A stretch of 64,000 bases of DNA from Ketobacter alkanivorans (GTDB taxonomy: Bacteria > Pseudomonadota > Gammaproteobacteria > Pseudomonadales > Ketobacteraceae), in contig NZ_CP022684.1 in NCBI RefSeq assembly GCF_002863865.1, forward strand, positions 3,787,990-3,851,989. The letters are read 5' to 3'. Each line of letters starts with the position of its first letter. The stretch's first letter is position 1. The notes under the pieces were generated by a model. The model was not told the DNA's origin. It saw nothing but the letters and a program-made list of their open reading frames with translations, and did not search any database. Shown here one piece after another: positions 5,587 through 12,849 of the stretch. Position numbers and translations under genes: made by a program.

Positions 5587-6087
5587 TCAAGCCTCGGTTG
5601 TGTCGTCCGGCAGGGGCCACAGCCCCTGCTTGCTTGTTGCGGCCAGCAGTGCTGCCACGCTGGTGCCATCAGGCAATAGCAGTGCGGCATTCAGGTCCAG
5701 CAGCGGCTGCAGTACAAAGTTGCGCTCCCGGGCGCGGGGATGAGGCACTTGTAAGCGCTGTGTGCTGATGACATCATTGTTGAACAGAAGGATATCCAGA
5801 TCCAGTGTTCGGGGTACCCATTGTTCTGGGCCGCGAATGCGCCCCTGGCCTTGTTCTATGGCCTGCAATTCGTCCAGTACGCTGTGGGCATCCAGTGTGG
5901 TGTGGAGCAGGGCTGCGGCATTCACGTAGTCTGGCTGTTGGCCAGGGCCAACCGCGCTGCTGCCATAAAAGGGAGAAACCGCAATCAGTTGCATGTTTGG
6001 AATAAGGCGGATGCTGGCAATGGCTTGTCGCAGCTGCTGGGCGGGGGTTTTAAGGTTGCTGCCCAGGCCGATGTAGACCTTGTTCAT
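5587..6087 (-). CDS. folK: HPPK, folate pyrophosphokinase
   Basis: A 166-residue 2-amino-4-hydroxy-6-hydroxymethyldihydropteridine pyrophosphokinase, which activates the pterin precursor for dihydropteroate synthesis. Motifs: YIGLGSNL at the start, SPFYGSSAVGPGQQPDYVN, and the signature RTLDLDILLF followed by PHPRARERNFVLQPL. Normal length. The ATG overlaps the pcnB stop by one base, giving translational coupling, and its stop is followed at once by the nucleoside kinase. Confidence 0.97.
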   Translation of the reverse strand: MNKVYIGLGSNLKTPAQQLRQAIASIRLIPNMQLIAVSPFYGSSAVGPGQQPDYVNAAALLHTTLDAHSVLDELQAIEQGQGRIRGPEQWVPRTLDLDILLFNNDVISTQRLQVPHPRARERNFVLQPLLDLNAALLLPDGTSVAALLAATSKQGLWPLPDDTTEA

Positions 6088-7445
6088 TACGCGTTTGGTG
6101 TGTTGTTACGGCGAGATTTGTTGTAGCGACGGCGACGGGGCTTTTTGCCTCCACCAAGGGATTGGCACATCTTGGTGCGTTCGCTTTGATCCGCTTCCTG
6201 GTATTGTGTCCACCATTCGCCCAGACCAGCTTCGGTTTCGCCTGCTTCTTCACGCAGTAACAGCATGTCGTAGGCAGCGCGGAAGCGAGGGTTCTGAATT
6301 AAGCCTTCACAGCGTTTGACTGAGCGCATGGCGAGGCGCCCTTGTAGTTCCCAGATCTCGCGCATGGGCAGACCAAAGCGTTTGGGGATCGAGGTGTGCT
6401 GTGCTTGCTTGTTGATGACTTTTTGAATGGCTTTTTGCAGTGCCGGGGCTGCATGCATTCCGTCTTCCTGAGCTTTACGCCACTCTTTCTGCAGTGGCCC
6501 CCACAGTAACACGGCTAATAAAAATGCAGGTGTTACCGGTTTACCTTCTGCAAGCCGGTTATCGGTATTGCGCAGAGCAATTTCGATCATGCGCTGCATG
6601 CCGGGTTCATCGTTACTGTCGGGTGATGAGAGGGGGAAAAGCCAGCGGGCGAGGTCGTATTGCACCAGCAAAGGCCAGACCGCTTGGGCGTGGCCGCTTA
6701 AGAACAGTTTTAATACTTCCTCAAACAGTCGGGCGGCGGGGATTAACCCCAGCAGTTCAGACAATTGGATGATGGGGGCTGCGGTGCGAGGTTCGATGGT
6801 AAAATCAAGTTTGGCGGCAAACCGCACGGCCCGTAACATCCGTACCGGGTCTTCGCGATAGCGTTGCTCGGGATCACCGATCAGGCGCAGGGTCTGGTGT
6901 TGGATATCTTCGTACCCGTTTACAAAATCCAATACCGCACCATCGGTGTGGCGGTAATAGAGGGCGTTGGCGGTAAAGTCACGCCTTATGGCGTCTTCAT
7001 CCAGGGTGCCGAATACGTTGTCCCGTAGCAGCATGCCCTCTTCGGACTGAGATGAGTGGTTTGCGTTCTCTTCGGCTTTGCCGTGGCTGGCCCGAAACGT
7101 GGCGACTTCTATGATTTCGCGGCCAAAGCGCACGTGGGCCAGGCGGAATCGTCTACCTATCAAGCGGCAGTTGCGGGAAAATACGGCCTTGATCTGCTCT
7201 GGAGTGGCGCTGGTGGCAATATCAAAGTCTTTAGGGTGCATGCCAATCAGGCCATCACGGATGGAGCCGCCTACCAGATAGGCTTCGTAACCGGCATCAG
7301 TCAACCCATCGAGCACGCTGTATACACTGCGGCCAATATCTTCTTCGGGGAAATGGTGCTGGCCACGGGGGATCACCCGGACGCTGGTTTTACCTGCGTT
7401 ACCGGAGATTAAGCCTTTGATTTTTTTGATAAGCCTTTTGGGCAT
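6087..7445 (-). CDS. pcnB: Poly(A) polymerase I
   Basis: A 452-residue member of the class II nucleotidyltransferases. It adds poly(A) tails that promote RNA decay. Motifs: LVGGSIRD, DFDIAT (catalytic aspartates), RRFRLAHVRFG, then RDFTANAL and the RMLRAVRFAAKL helix. The C-terminus is basic (KKPRRRRYNKSRRNN), as in PcnB. It heads the folK-dNK-panB-panC operon and starts about 100 bases downstream of the CrcZ-like RNA terminator, the same placement as in Pseudomonas. Confidence 0.95.
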   Translation of the reverse strand: MPKRLIKKIKGLISGNAGKTSVRVIPRGQHHFPEEDIGRSVYSVLDGLTDAGYEAYLVGGSIRDGLIGMHPKDFDIATSATPEQIKAVFSRNCRLIGRRFRLAHVRFGREIIEVATFRASHGKAEENANHSSQSEEGMLLRDNVFGTLDEDAIRRDFTANALYYRHTDGAVLDFVNGYEDIQHQTLRLIGDPEQRYREDPVRMLRAVRFAAKLDFTIEPRTAAPIIQLSELLGLIPAARLFEEVLKLFLSGHAQAVWPLLVQYDLARWLFPLSSPDSNDEPGMQRMIEIALRNTDNRLAEGKPVTPAFLLAVLLWGPLQKEWRKAQEDGMHAAPALQKAIQKVINKQAQHTSIPKRFGLPMREIWELQGRLAMRSVKRCEGLIQNPRFRAAYDMLLLREEAGETEAGLGEWWTQYQEADQSERTKMCQSLGGGKKPRRRRYNKSRRNNTPNA

Positions 7446-7548: not shown

Positions 7549-7584
7549 AAAAAGCAAAAAGGGAAAGCCTTTCGACTTTCCCTT
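7549..7584 (-). terminator. Intrinsic terminator of the CrcZ-like RNA
   Basis: Minus-strand stem AAGGGAAAG/CTTTCCCTT (7576-7584 with 7559-7567), 8-base loop, followed by TTTGCTTTTT. It is a good rho-independent terminator just before the pcnB leader. Confidence 0.85.
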
Positions 7585-7947
7585 ACGCTTCATGCTTATA
7601 ATAGTTTTTATAGAAGCTCTATTCTTTTCTGACTGGGCCCGAAGGCCCAGTCTTGTGCCGACTCTTATTGTTGTTTTTTTGCGATCTGTTTTTGTTTTTA
7701 TTATCGCGTTTCTTATTTTTATTGTTTTACTTTTTTATTGGTGGTTGCGGCAGTAAGAGGGATCTTTCAATCTAAGCCATTTATTATTATTGTTTATATG
7801 GCTCACAACCCTGGGGTTGTCCTCTTTCTGTATGCCACTCAAAAAGTGACCACCGAGCTTTATTATTATTGTTGTTATCGCTCTCGACTGTTCAAGGGGG
7901 CCATTTATTATTGTTATTAGTTATGTCTGGCTGATCCTTGTTGGTAC
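7549..7947 (-). ncRNA. crcZ: CrcZ-like Hfq/Crc decoy small RNA
   Basis: This region between cbrB and pcnB has no credible protein gene. Read on the minus strand it gives a transcript of about 400 nt, from about 12 bases after a sigma-54 promoter to an intrinsic terminator. It carries about six A-rich (ARN)n tracts: at 7903-7922, 7859-7878, 7779-7797, 7707-7741, 7684-7705 and 7660-7682, for example AACAATAATAATAAATGG. These match the CA motifs that bind the Hfq distal face with Crc. It also has a 9-bp hairpin closed by a UUCG loop (7631-7652) and an ACAACCC/GGGTTGT stem (7805-7820). Pseudomonas crcZ has this locus, size, promoter type and motif count. Function here is inferred from these parallels. 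Confidence 0.85.
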
Positions 7948-7950
7948 GCT

Positions 7951-7975
7951 AGATATATAGCAGGGCGCGTGCCAA
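7951..7975 (-). promoter_or_regulatory. Sigma-54 promoter of the CrcZ-like RNA
   Basis: On the minus strand TTGGCACGCGCCCTGCTA has GG (7973-7972) and GC (7961-7960) exactly 10 bases apart, matching the -24/-12 consensus TTGGCACG-N4-TTGC closely. Predicted start of transcription is about 7946-7948. It lies downstream of cbrB, which encodes a sigma-54 activator. Confidence 0.85.
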
Positions 7976-8020: not shown

Positions 8021-8287
8021 TGTTACCGTCTGTAAGTGGGGTGAAAAGTCAATATTCTGTTACCTGAAAACTGTGTATGTGTTTCCTTTTGTGTGTAGAG
8101 CGGTAACACTTGTGTGTGGAGTACCGTCGGTAACACGCACGTTACGCTTGGTAAAATTTGTTAACAATTCAAGGTTTTGAGGGCGGTAAAGCTCGATGCC
8201 CTTAGGGGCAAGGCGTTATTTTCATCGAATGGGTGTTTTGTACGGTAACATTCCGTAACATAAGGTCAAAAAATAGACAGTTGTTAC
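8021..8287. promoter_or_regulatory. Cluster of TGTTAC/GTAACA half-sites (candidate CbrB UAS)
   Basis: Seven exact half-sites lie upstream of the sigma-54 promoter: TGTTAC at 8021, 8058 and 8282, and GTAACA at 8103, 8130, 8245 and 8255, plus near matches at 8140 and 8159. In Pseudomonas, CbrB is reported to bind paired TGTTAC and GTAACA elements in front of crcZ. The 8245 and 8255 copies are exactly 10 bp apart, and the segments near 8090-8109 and 8109-8136 form an imperfect direct repeat. The exact paired spacing reported in Pseudomonas is not seen here, so the architecture may differ. Confidence 0.7.
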
Positions 8288-8314: not shown

Positions 8315-9718
8315 TTAGCGTGCAGCAGGCTTTTTGCGGGGGATGCCAAGTCTTTGACGTCGCTCCCACAGGCACTTACGGCTGATTCCCAGCTTTTGTG
8401 CCAGCTCGGTTTCCGTCATTTGCTCCTGGTGTTCCATTACGAAGCGTTGGAAATAGTCTTCCAGCGAGAGGTCTTCTGCAGGATCTGGCACTTCTTCGTG
8501 CTTGGTGAGGCTTGTGCGGGGTGTGGGTAGTGTGATGTCGTCGTCCAGCTCGTACTCGGACTCGGGGTGCATGTCCAGCGCCATCAGGTCTGGGGCGATT
8601 ATTTGGCCATCACACAGGATTACGGCGCGCTCGATCGCGTTTTCCAGCTCCCGAACGTTGCCCGGCCATCGATACAGGTTAATGGCGTCGAGGGCTTCCT
8701 TGGAAAAGCTCATCTCTTGCTTGGCCATGCGGCGGGCGGTGCGGATCAGGAGTTCGCGGGCGAGTTTTTCAATGTCATCACCCCGATCCCGCAAGGGGGG
8801 CAGCTTCAGCTCCACTACGTGCAGGCGATAATACAGATCCTCCCGAAAGCGCCCCTCTTTTGCCAGGCTTTTCAGGTTACGGTGGGTGGCGGCCACTAGC
8901 CGTACATCCACGGTTTTGGATTGCACGGAACCAACCCGGCGCACTTCTTTTTCCTGCAGCAGTCGCAACAGGCGGGCTTGAGCTTCCAGGGGCAGTTCAC
9001 CTATTTCGTCCAGAAACAGGGTGCCGCCATCGGCAGCCTCTACCAGGCCTTTGCGATTGGCGTTGGCCCCTGTAAATGCGCCTTTCTCGTGACCAAACAG
9101 TTCTGATTCGATCAATGTCTCTGGGATGGCGGCGCAGTTTACCGAGATCAGGGGGCCGCCGTGACGATGGCTTTGGTCGTGAACCGCCCGTGCCACCAGT
9201 TCTTTACCGGTGCCGGACTCACCCAGTACCAGTACGGTGGAGTCTGTGGGGGCGACTTTCTGGATGTTTTTAAACAATGCCTGCATGGCTTCGCAGGCAC
9301 CGATCATGCCGGTGAGGGGGAAATCTCTGCTGATTTGTGATTTCAGGGCCTGGTTTTCCCGTTCCAGCGCTTTCTCTTTGAGGATGCGCTCCACGGACAT
9401 CAGCATTTCGTCGTGGTCGAAGGGTTTGGAGATGTAGTCCACAGCGCCCATTTTCATGGATTCAACAGCGGATTTGAGGCTGGCGTAACTGGTCATCACC
9501 AGTACGGGGACGCCTTCGGCTTGTGGAATGATGTCTGTACCCGGAGCACCCGGCAGGCGCAGGTCGGTAATGATCAGGTCGAAGTCTGTGAGCTTGAAGG
9601 TGTCTACAGCATCCTGCACTGCACCGGCTTCGCTTATCTGGTAGCCGTTGCGCTCCAAAAGACGACGCAATGCGTTGCGTATAACTGCTTCGTCTTCAAC
9701 GATCAGGATGTGGCTCAT
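8315..9718 (-). CDS. cbrB: Sigma-54-dependent response regulator CbrB
   Basis: 467 residues from the ATG at 9718 ([14 protein letters not shown]); an upstream in-frame extension would only read back through the end of cbrA. Domains: receiver (phospho-Asp in [11 protein letters not shown], Lys in SKPFD), AAA+ sigma-54 activator (Walker [15 protein letters not shown] loop, Walker [13 protein letters not shown]), and a Fis-type helix-turn-helix at the end ([21 protein letters not shown]). It overlaps cbrA by 23 bases. In Pseudomonas CbrB activates crcZ and catabolic genes; the adjacent sigma-54 promoter supports the same job here. Confidence 0.93.
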
Positions 9719-12683
9719 GCTGTTCCTCATGGTCGACAGTGGTGTTGCCTTCGGATAACAGTGTATAGCGAGGCAGAGTAATGGTAACACGGGTTCCGCC
9801 ATTTTCGGAATCCAGCGGGCTCTGTATCGTAATTTGGCCGTAGTGCTCTTCGATGATGCTGTATACCAAAGACATACCCAGGCCCGTTCCCTTGCCAGGG
9901 TCTTTGGTGGTTACGAAGGGTTCGTAAATTCGCTTGAGTACATCCGGTGGGATGCCGCTGCCGTTATCCTCCACCTCTATTACGATGGTGTGGTCTTTCT
10001 CATGGCTTAATATTTTAACTTCCCCGTCGATGTTCATGGCATCCCGCGCATTGCTGAGCAGGTTGATGAACACTTGCGTGAGGCGTTGCTGATCGCCTTT
10101 AACGCAGTGCGAGGCGTCGGCCAGGTTGGTAAACGCAACCTGCGTCACCTCTTTATTCAGGCTCAGCAGGTCAATGGCTTCTTGGACGCATTCGTGTACG
10201 TATACGGGCTCCATGGCGACTTCGGTGGTGCCGCTGTGGCTGAAGCTCACCAGAGATTGCACGATACGAGTAATGCGCTTGGTCTGATCCAGGATTTGGT
10301 CGGCGCTTTCCAGGATGGCGGGTGCTTCGCTGTCGTATCGCAGATTTTGTGCCAGGCAGGCGATGCCGGTAATGGGGTTGCCAATTTCATGCGCCACCCC
10401 GGCGGCCAGTTTGCCCACAGAGGCCAGGCGTTCGTTGTGAGCCACATGGTGTTCCAGCATTTTGATTTCGGTGGTGTCTTCTACCACAACCACTTGACCG
10501 CTGTGGGCTTGTTTGGATTTGCCCAAGCCAATGGCCGCTTTGTGCAGGCTGATCCAGCGTTGTACGCCATCCAGCTCCACTTCGATCTGCTGGTTGCGGG
10601 AGTCGACATCAATGAATTGGCTGAACACTTGGTTCCAGGGTTGGGGCAGATGGCTGATCTGAGAGCCGAGGATTTGGTCTGGAGAGATGCGGGTAATGGT
10701 TTCCAGTGCGCTGTTCCAGCCCAGCACCTCGCCATCGCTACCCAGCGAGCAAACCCCCACCGGTAGATCTTGCAGGGTTTGACGGTGAAAGCGTCGCAGG
10801 CTGTCCAGTTCACCTGCAAGGCCTGTGAGTTTGTCGTGGTACTCTTCCAGTCGGCTTTCGATGAAGTGGATGTCCTGGCCGCTGGTGTCGTTGGTGTGGA
10901 TGACGTAGGGCACAGAGGTGTTCATGATCTCATGAGCCACCGATGGCCCCAGCAAACCGGACAGGTTGCTTTCCAGCTGATCCCGTAAGCGGCGCAGGGC
11001 GTAGGGGCGGGTTTCGTCCAGGCTCATGGCGAGATCGTTCAAGGCCAGTTCGACTTCGCGCCGGGCGGTGCTGGCCCCCAGCGGTTTGGCAAGGCGGCCA
11101 ACAAATTCGCGGGCCGAGGAAATGGACAGCTCCCAGCGCTGGGGGCGGCGCAAGTTGTCTACGTTGCAGGTCTCTGCGGCCTGTTTTTCGGCAGGGGAGG
11201 ATTCCGTCAGCATGGAGACGATGCCGAAAATGGTGGAGTTAATGAAGATGGCAAAGGTGGCCACCATATAGCTGTTGTTGGGGGTGGGGAACAGGTCGTT
11301 AATTAACAGCGGTGCAGAGATGTGAATTTGTATACCCAGCAGTACTGGCAGCAACAGCCCGAACAGCCACACGCTGATGCCCGCCGCCAGACCCGCCAGG
11401 AATCCATCTTTGTTCGCCTTGGGCCACAACAGCACGCCAAACAGCCCTGGCACAAATTGCATGGTTGCAACGAACGCCAGAAATCCCAGTTCAGAGAGGG
11501 TGTGCTTGTTTTGCATGACCACGTAAAACAGGTAACTCACCAGCACGATCGCGGTAATCAGTAAGCGCCGCATCCACAGTAGCCACGAGTACAGGTTGGT
11601 GCGGCGGTAGAATGGTGCCATAGGCAGCACCAGATGGTTGAGGAACATGGCCGACAGCGACAGGGTGCAGACAATGATTACGCCACTGGCGGCAGACAGG
11701 CCCGCCGCAAAACCCAGGATTGCCAGCCATTTGGATTCCATCGCCTGCGGTACCAGCAGAGTGAAATATTCGGGGTTGCTGAATATGTTGAGTTTGGCCG
11801 CAGCCCACACAATGATCAGCACCGGCAGGGCAATCAGGAACAGGTAGAGCGGCAACCCCCAGCTGGCGGTCAGGATGGCGCGCGGGTTGAGGTTCTCGGT
11901 GAATGCCATATGGAACATGTGGGGCATGGCCACCGATGCCACAAAGAACGCTGCCACCAGTGCTCGCCAAGGGCCTTCCTCAAGCGGCTGGTAAAGGGAC
12001 ACCAGTTGCTCCGGGTGATCCTCCAGCCAATTGTTCAGGCCGCTGGGGCCTCCAAAAACATCGAACAGAATGATACCGCCCACCAGCAGAAAGCCCACCA
12101 GTTTTACCAGTGACTCGAAGGCGATGGCCACTACCAGGCCTTCGTGTTTCTCACGAGTGCTGATATGGCGGGCACCAAACAGGATAGCGAACATGATAAT
12201 CAACACCACAAAAGCGAATGCCAGCATTTCGGGTGAGGTGTCTTCGTTGAGGATGTGGATTGCGTCGGCCACGGCTTGAATCTGCAGCGCCAGCAGCGGC
12301 ATGATGCCCACCAGCATAGTAATGGTGACCACCGCACCTACGACCGGGCTGCGATAGCGAAACGACAGCAGATCTGCCAGCGAGCCCAGCTGATAGGTTT
12401 GGGTTAACTTGAGAATGGGGGCGAGGATGATGGGGGCCAGCATAAAGGCCCCGGAAATGCCCAGATAATAGGCCAGAAAGTTGTAGCCGAAATCGTGGGC
12501 GAAGCCTACGGCACCGTAAATGGCCCAGGCACTGGCAAACACACCCAGTGACAGCACATAAGTGGCTGGGTGGCGAACGATGCGGGCAGGAATGTAGCCT
12601 TGTTCGGTGAGGTAGGCCACCAGAAAAAACAGCAGCAGATATCCGACACCGATACCAAACAGCTGGGCAACACTAAAATCCAT
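9696..12683 (-). CDS. cbrA: Transporter-sensor histidine kinase CbrA
   Basis: 995 residues from the ATG at 12683 (MDFSVAQLF); a TTG 21 bases upstream is less likely. The first ~500 residues are an SLC5/sodium-solute-symporter-like domain with about 13 membrane helices. A linker, a PAS domain ([20 protein letters not shown]) and a kinase core follow: H-box GVAHEIGNP near residue 764, N-box [11 protein letters not shown]-boxes EDNGSGIP and GTGLGMSLV. This is the CbrA architecture, thought to couple histidine or nutrient transport to phosphorylation of CbrB. It overlaps cbrX by 11 bases and cbrB by 23 bases, indicating tight translational coupling. Confidence 0.93.
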
Positions 12684-12849
12684 CCAGATCCCGACTCCGA
12701 GCAATCCAGAACGTCACCGCAATCAGCAGCCCCCACACAATAAAGGGTCGCCACCAGGCTGTGCCGCTCTCGGCCCACCACTGCATCAGTGAGGGCGACA
12801 GCACATAAGCGCCTGCGATGAATATAAGAACCAGCCGATCAATGTACAT
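12673..12849 (-). CDS. cbrX: Small membrane protein CbrX-like
   Basis: A 58-residue ORF from the ATG at 12849 (MYIDRLVLIF...) with a hydrophobic N-terminal segment (residues 6-21), a Trp-rich middle (LMQWWAESGTAWWRP) and a second hydrophobic segment (residues 36-49), ending RSRDLDGF. It fits the small cbrX gene that sits before cbrA in Pseudomonas and influences cbrA translation. It overlaps the cbrA start by 11 bases (ATGGATTTTAG). It begins 36 bases after the gluQ stop. Two membrane helices are predicted; its molecular role is not known. Confidence 0.8.
   Translation of the reverse strand: MYIDRLVLIFIAGAYVLSPSLMQWWAESGTAWWRPFIVWGLLIAVTFWIARSRDLDGF

Follow-up and report, generated by a model that had tools for sequence, protein, structure and literature searches.

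A crcZ orthologue in a Ketobacter-group bacterium that probably acts as a decoy for Hfq alone

In Pseudomonas aeruginosa, the RNA CrcZ (407 nt) carries six A-rich stretches and titrates Hfq by binding to its distal face (PMC4063720). The same report calls Crc ancillary in P. aeruginosa, and Hfq "necessary and sufficient" for repression of amiE in E. coli; it also states that full repression in P. aeruginosa in vivo requires Crc, and over-expression of crcZ in a crc deletion strain formed part of its study design (PMC4063720). At the crcZ gene of P. putida, CbrB binds one forward subsite (TGTTAC) and two reverse subsites (GTAACA) (PMC6296734). CbrAB is stated to be exclusive to the Pseudomonadaceae, where it occurs in Pseudomonas and Azotobacter (PMC8871633, PMC6296734), and a review states the same exclusivity for the crcZ arrangement (PMC8871633). 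Among the literature matches listed, titles and abstract openings contained no description of crcZ outside Pseudomonas and Azotobacter, or of CrcZ without Crc, and nothing that spoke against the exclusivity of CbrAB.

The DNA analyzed here, referred to as the window, is a 64-kb stretch (64,000 nt) of a complete genome of 4.91 Mb. We infer that its genus is Ketobacter and that the family sampled around it is Ketobacteraceae. NCBI places Ketobacter in the Ketobacteraceae, Pseudomonadales, and species of the genus degrade alkanes. Three protein-coding genes frame the locus:

9696..12704, minus strand: cbrA, sensor kinase fused to a transporter-like part (Pfam, and identity to Pseudomonas CbrA)
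8315..9802, minus strand: cbrB, sigma-54 response regulator, longest open reading frame (sigma-54 activator domain)
6087..7445, minus strand: pcnB, poly(A) polymerase, the downstream neighbor (TIGR01942)

The order on the minus strand, 5' to 3', is cbrA, cbrB, a gap of 869 nt, and pcnB, so that a CbrA-type kinase adjoins the sigma-54 response regulator CbrB as in the described two-component system. The window CbrA is 54 to 56% identical, over most of its length, to CbrA of named Pseudomonas loci, and 90% identical to that of a second Ketobacter genome (G003); Pfam at E 1e-3 identified only the PAS, HisKA, and HATPase domains, and the transporter-like part is assigned solely by the 54 to 56% identity. 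The true start of cbrB probably lies further in, near 9718. PcnB scored 510.5 bits against TIGR01942 (cut-off, 305.65). A crcZ-like unit lies between cbrB and pcnB on the strand of both, and is placed likewise in the five congeners examined; in three further family genomes (L040, L041, and L044), no pcnB was found downstream of it. An earlier note on this DNA, made from the letters of the sequence, had described a gene-free segment of about 400 nt between cbrB and pcnB, and this was borne out: the neighbors are identified, the segment contains no open reading frame of at least 100 aa, and the longest one wholly inside it on the sense strand has 35 aa. The elements of the unit, with the tracts defined by motif count and predicted fold, are as follows:

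7959..7974, minus strand: sigma-54 promoter TGGCACGCGCCCTGCT (match to TGGCACNNNNNYTGCW)
7550..7948, minus strand: crcZ-like RNA gene, about 399 nt (start predicted from promoter spacing, end from terminator)
7904..7918, minus strand: ARN tract 1, 5 units, in a stem-closed loop
7859..7876, minus strand: ARN tract 2, 6 units, in a GAGC/GCUC loop
7780..7794, minus strand: ARN tract 3, 5 units, in a hairpin loop
7709..7726, minus strand: ARN tract 4, 6 units, in an unpaired linker
7685..7702, minus strand: ARN tract 5, 6 units, in a GCGAU/AUCGC hairpin loop
7661..7678, minus strand: ARN tract 6, 6 units, in an unpaired linker
7631..7652, minus strand: UUCG hairpin (aligned with the CUUCGG hairpin of Rfam CrcZ)
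7550..7584, minus strand: intrinsic terminator, stem 7584-7559 plus T-run (terminator scan)

The sequence TGGCACGCGCCCTGCT (7974-7959) is the sole match to TGGCACNNNNNYTGCW in the 64-kb window; since 0.35 matches are expected by chance, the match taken alone is weak evidence. Judged from the spacing to the promoter GG/GC, transcription would start near 7948, adjoining the 7947 that had been proposed together with a sigma-54 promoter. The terminator that had been claimed at the other end was recovered by the scan as a stem at 7584-7559 followed by a T-run, in a region where 1.2 terminator-like sites are expected by chance. What had been counted as "about six" (ARN)n tracts are exactly six at n >= 5, starting on the transcribed strand at 7918, 7876, 7794, 7726, 7702, and 7678, while the opposite strand of the RNA region has no 5-unit tract and one 4-unit tract. 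The motif AANAANAA occurs 21 times on the sense strand and 0 times on the other; in 2,000 dinucleotide shuffles its mean was 3.2 and its maximum 13, and none of the shuffles attained any of the four tract counts. The RNA region, 42% of which is A, is the densest 398-nt stretch for AANAANAA in the window when both strands are compared. The window RNA fits the published description of CrcZ, which has a length of about 407 nt and six (ARN)n tracts (n >= 4).

Upstream of the promoter lie three words that correspond to the CbrB subsites and that were absent from the earlier description of the unit:

8103..8108, minus strand: CbrB subsite F1, TGTTAC (word match; invariant in six genomes of the genus)
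8080..8085, minus strand: CbrB subsite R1, GAAACA, one mismatch to GTAACA (5/6 positions invariant)
8058..8063, minus strand: CbrB subsite R2, GTAACA (word match; invariant in six genomes)

All three subsites known from P. putida are thus represented upstream of the sigma-54 promoter, R1 with one mismatch. They are positioned at -134/-111/-89 from the promoter T, with spacings of 23 and 22; the corresponding positions in six named Pseudomonas loci picked for this comparison are about -124/-104/-82, with spacings of 20 and 22. A pattern with this layout, composed after inspection of the site, has a single match in 64 kb and none in any of 100 shuffles. Extra TGTTAC and GTAACA words are found at -161 and -52.

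No Rfam family reached its gathering score in the window. The best match in the gap at a relaxed threshold was CrcZ (RF01675), spanning the last tracts and the CUUCGG hairpin, with 22.9 bits (E 7e-4); the gathering score is 95 bits, and the window RNA is by that measure not a member. When the loci of 14 relatives were scanned, weak CrcZ matches (24.5 to 31 bits) appeared in 6 of 10 Ketobacteraceae loci, the other four giving none at E 0.1, and the Pseudomonas-type locus L046 gave a full match of 306.8 bits; the loci without a match at E 0.1 were L039, L042, L043, L044, L045, L047, and L050. In its place, enhancer, promoter, and architecture the RNA is an orthologue of crcZ, yet it stands outside the curated Rfam family. 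The UUCG hairpin had been taken for a possible local addition; this does not hold, as Rfam CrcZ has a CUUCGG hairpin at the aligned place, and 21/22 positions of the window hairpin do not vary among the six genomes compared within the genus.

The remaining elements were compared across the same six genomes. Promoter, tracts, and terminator lie between cbrB and pcnB in all five congeners (5/5). Invariant positions number 15/19 in the promoter, 6/6 in F1, 5/6 in R1, 6/6 in R2, and 30/35 in the terminator, and 12/15, 13/18, 8/15, and 15/18 in tracts 1, 2, 3, and 6, respectively; tracts 4 and 5 stand at 0/18 because one genome (L039) lacks both. Three spacers are 29 to 32% invariant. The predicted RNA fold has an energy of -106.5 kcal/mol, against a mean of -68.9 in 100 shuffles (z, -7.6), and would place tracts 1, 2, 3, and 5 in loops and tracts 4 and 6 in linkers. 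Two-sided changes are seen in 9 of 82 predicted pairs over the six close genomes, and with a covariation term of only -1.84 we regard the predicted structure as moderately supported.

A covariance and motif search of related genomes, which the earlier note had proposed as a check, was in agreement with these results: the five congeners keep the unit, and a covariance model of the 3' module matched 14 of 15 family genomes, G012 being the exception. The model was limited to the 3' module (the full alignment has 437 columns) and was trained on eight family genomes; six of the 14 matched genomes lie outside the training set, with E values of 4.5e-13 to 1.5e-6. One match was obtained per matched genome, a lower bound, as at most 150 first-look candidates of each were scored. 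The module lies in the cbrB-pcnB gap in G008 and G013, about 1.2 kb after cbrB in G006, 2 kb after a cbrA fragment in G007, and on contigs other than that of cbrA in G010 and G014. All 11 family stretches carry tracts, with 6 to 11 tracts of at least 4 units each. The G006 locus (L044) has an enlarged version after cbrB, with 11 such tracts in 1 kb.

Hfq-bound small RNAs end in hairpins and a U-run, as does this RNA, and its 3' module is the part conserved enough for modelling. It might therefore be mainly an ordinary base-pairing small RNA that depends on Hfq, with the ARN tracts serving other ends, such as stability. Six tracts far exceed the need of one Hfq contact, however, and they persist across the 11 family stretches while their number varies; we consider such an RNA very unlikely, and favor a decoy.

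Given the role of Crc in P. aeruginosa, the window genome was searched for this protein. PAO1 Crc as a query gave no match there at E 0.001; it matched 44 of 57 sample genomes, many only at a weak, exonuclease III level. Three proteins of the window genome exceed the PF03372 cut-off, namely one exonuclease III and two others that fall under every NCBIfam cut-off. A Crc/NExo profile of 14 rows, run over 15 family genomes, gave 85.2 to 105.8 bits in 12 and 404.4 bits in G006, compared with 399.5 to 412.5 bits in the control genomes (three Pseudomonas and one Stutzerimonas); 11 of the 12 weak hits exceed the NCBIfam exonuclease III cut-off, G005 being the twelfth. No protein was returned from G001 and G007 (54% complete), and as even exonuclease III was missed in these two, the first look of the profile search is imperfect. 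The G006 protein keeps four catalytic motifs, as read by eye, and is for that reason taken to be NExo rather than Crc. The genes of Crc (L075) and NExo (G006) both sit between rph and pyrE, whose aligned ends are 1404 and 1143 nt apart, respectively. In the other family loci rph and pyrE abut, 5 to 53 nt apart (13/13, G001 and G007 included; the count excludes G012, which gave no pyrE match). A diverged Crc or a remnant of it in the window genome was considered and ruled out by the PF03372 search, the Crc/NExo profile, and the closed rph-pyrE junction.

Of the Hfq-Crc system, the window genome therefore has Hfq (one gene, 103 bits) and no detected Crc, and we infer a decoy for Hfq rather than for Hfq and Crc. 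The earlier note had claimed an Hfq/Crc decoy outside Pseudomonas: the CrcZ-type decoy is supported by place, CbrB sites, promoter, tracts, length, and terminator, and by the weak but collinear Rfam CrcZ match, whereas the Crc half is not supported. The absence of crc, which had been named as grounds for refutation, refutes an Hfq/Crc decoy but not an Hfq decoy.

If Crc is ancillary and Hfq suffices for amiE repression in E. coli, a decoy acting on Hfq alone is plausible, and because full repression in P. aeruginosa requires Crc, repression in such a circuit may perhaps be weaker than with Crc (PMC4063720). The same requirement (PMC4063720) could be taken to mean that the RNA sequesters Hfq together with some other partner in place of Crc, either a non-homologous protein or an exonuclease III put to new use; the genome keeps XthA, which is distantly related to Crc (27% identity). 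XthA has the usual catalytic motifs, however, and scores 434 bits against an exonuclease III cut-off of 280, and no candidate was seen in a search confined to the Crc family, so that we hold a substitute partner to be improbable. The lack of a detected Crc would also suit a relic, a decoy functionless since the loss of Crc whose A-rich sequence (42% A) lingers, and L039, of the same genus, has lost tracts 4 and 5. Against this, conservation is specific to the elements while the spacers are free to vary, and tracts are still present in 11/11 family stretches; a relic is the least likely of the alternatives, with hardly any weight in our judgment. We therefore retain the crcZ orthologue acting as a decoy on Hfq alone, at a probability of about 0.8.

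In this reading, scarcity of good carbon sources would lead CbrA to activate CbrB, which, bound at its three subsites, would drive sigma-54 transcription of the RNA of about 400 nt; the transcript would end at its own terminator, as the conserved sites suggest for both steps. By analogy with P. aeruginosa, the six single-stranded (ARN)n tracts would bind the distal face of Hfq and pull it off A-rich ribosome-binding sites in mRNAs for less favored carbon sources, relieving their repression. Crc was not detected, and the RNA would then work on Hfq without it.

A point against this reading is that Hfq of the window genome has F25, a position at which Y is frequent in the other sequences compared. 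Hfq sequences from 30 of the 57 genomes (L195 and L269-L297) fall into two types, F25 with Y42 and F42. The F25/Y42 type is found in 19 genomes, 12 of them Ketobacteraceae, and in none of these was a degenerate Crc-type protein found; of the 11 genomes with the F42 type, 8 have a degenerate Crc-type protein, 2 are unclassified, and 1 is without. The pattern of Hfq type and Crc may reflect kinship only.

A search for Hfq targets found 75 matches to AAYAAYAAYAA in the genome, 8 of them in the crcZ-like RNA. Among 59 other places, 10 are followed at 11 to 50 nt, on the same strand, by an ATG that has an SD-like match, compared with 2 for the opposite strand, a weak control because leaders are purine-rich; a reversed-pattern control is uninformative, since the pattern reads almost the same backwards. 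None of the classical carbon-use set was recognized among these open reading frames, by eye from their first residues, and the search is suggestive only of possible targets. In one leader (L228:1501-1520), an ARN tract runs into AAGG just before the ATG of an open reading frame of about 500 aa, the layout expected of an Hfq-repressed mRNA; other leaders in the window genome are similar.

CbrA orthologues are present in 48 of the 57 sample genomes (cut, 677 bits; next genome, 245). The stretch after cbrB was examined in the window and, among the other 47 genomes with CbrA, in 40 (all except G007, G010, G012, G014, G024, G041, and G046), and was crcZ-like in 31 of these 41 genomes of the order, with thresholds chosen after the sequences had been seen. 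Grouped by catalytic class, assigned by eye from four motifs, the crcZ-like stretches occur in 16/22 genomes with a degenerate Crc-type protein, 4/5 with catalytic NExo only, 10/11 with neither, and 1/3 unclassified; 14 of the 31 have no detected Crc-type protein, and the positives include every one of the 11 Ketobacteraceae stretches. Some of the stretches not counted lie on cut contigs (G015) or narrowly missed the thresholds (G056, a genome in which the only match is at exonuclease III level, 97 bits). A set of 80 named loci consists of 73 that are nearly all Pseudomonas (L122-L194) and seven that are Ketobacteraceae-like (L115-L121). Of the former, 72 have 3 to 6 tracts of at least 4 units, and L184 has none; of the latter, two on cut contigs (L118 and L119) gave none. 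In Alcanivorax limicola (L169), cbrAB and three tracts are present, and the sole match is at exonuclease III level (98.8 bits). The Ketobacter among the named genomes profiled for Crc is G003 and is not an independent case.

Several of the stretches differ in form. The gaps of L055 and L071, from two other families, each have two sigma-54 promoters with ARN tracts after each, and that of L053 is similar by eye, its first promoter being off-consensus. These look like tandem copies of crcZ, from which CrcY/CrcX-type paralogues could have arisen. L055, L061, L064, and L066 show by eye a short crcZ-like type, with 2 or 3 tracts and a common GACCTGGRTGGGG before the last hairpin. In three genomes, G043 (L104/L105), G017 (L101/L111), and G037 (L094/L107), a catalytic NExo occurs alongside a degenerate Crc-type protein, as would be expected if Crc arose by duplication of an exonuclease.

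In the genomes examined here, cbrAB with a crcZ-like stretch is spread over many families of the order and has been retained in one in which no Crc was detected. We tentatively extend this to a broader proposal, to which we give a little less than an even chance: that CrcZ is in essence an Hfq decoy independent of Crc; that several lineages (Ketobacteraceae, Alcanivorax, and the families with NExo only) run CbrAB-CrcZ-Hfq without Crc; and that Crc is an optional cofactor, descended from an exonuclease at the rph-pyrE locus, which some lineages have and others have lost. The Ketobacteraceae offer a natural experiment on the part that Crc plays beside Hfq, and if the decoy stays under selection without Crc, then Hfq alone must suffice for some carbon-control circuit. 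The locus also gives a handle on carbon preference in the marine Ketobacter group.

CrcY and CrcX of pseudomonads are encoded elsewhere than the place between cbrB and pcnB, and no second copy of the 3' module that could correspond to them was found among the 150 scored of 229 candidates in the window genome. According to PMC8871633, they should likewise act as A-rich decoys of Hfq controlled by CbrB. Decoys of the CsrB/RsmZ type likewise titrate a translational repressor with repeated motifs, a parallel drawn in PMC4063720, but the motif and the protein are different. CrcZ of Pseudomonas and Azotobacter is the closest described RNA. The window RNA differs from it in scoring below the Rfam gathering score and in belonging to a genome without detected Crc; furthermore, another conserved stretch and then a separate terminator come after its UUCG hairpin, whereas in Pseudomonas-type gaps, as read by eye, the last hairpin is itself closely trailed by T-rich sequence. 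The two share the place between cbrB and pcnB, the CbrB subsites, the sigma-54 promoter, six ARN tracts, a length of about 400 nt, a CUUCGG hairpin near the 3' end, and a terminator.
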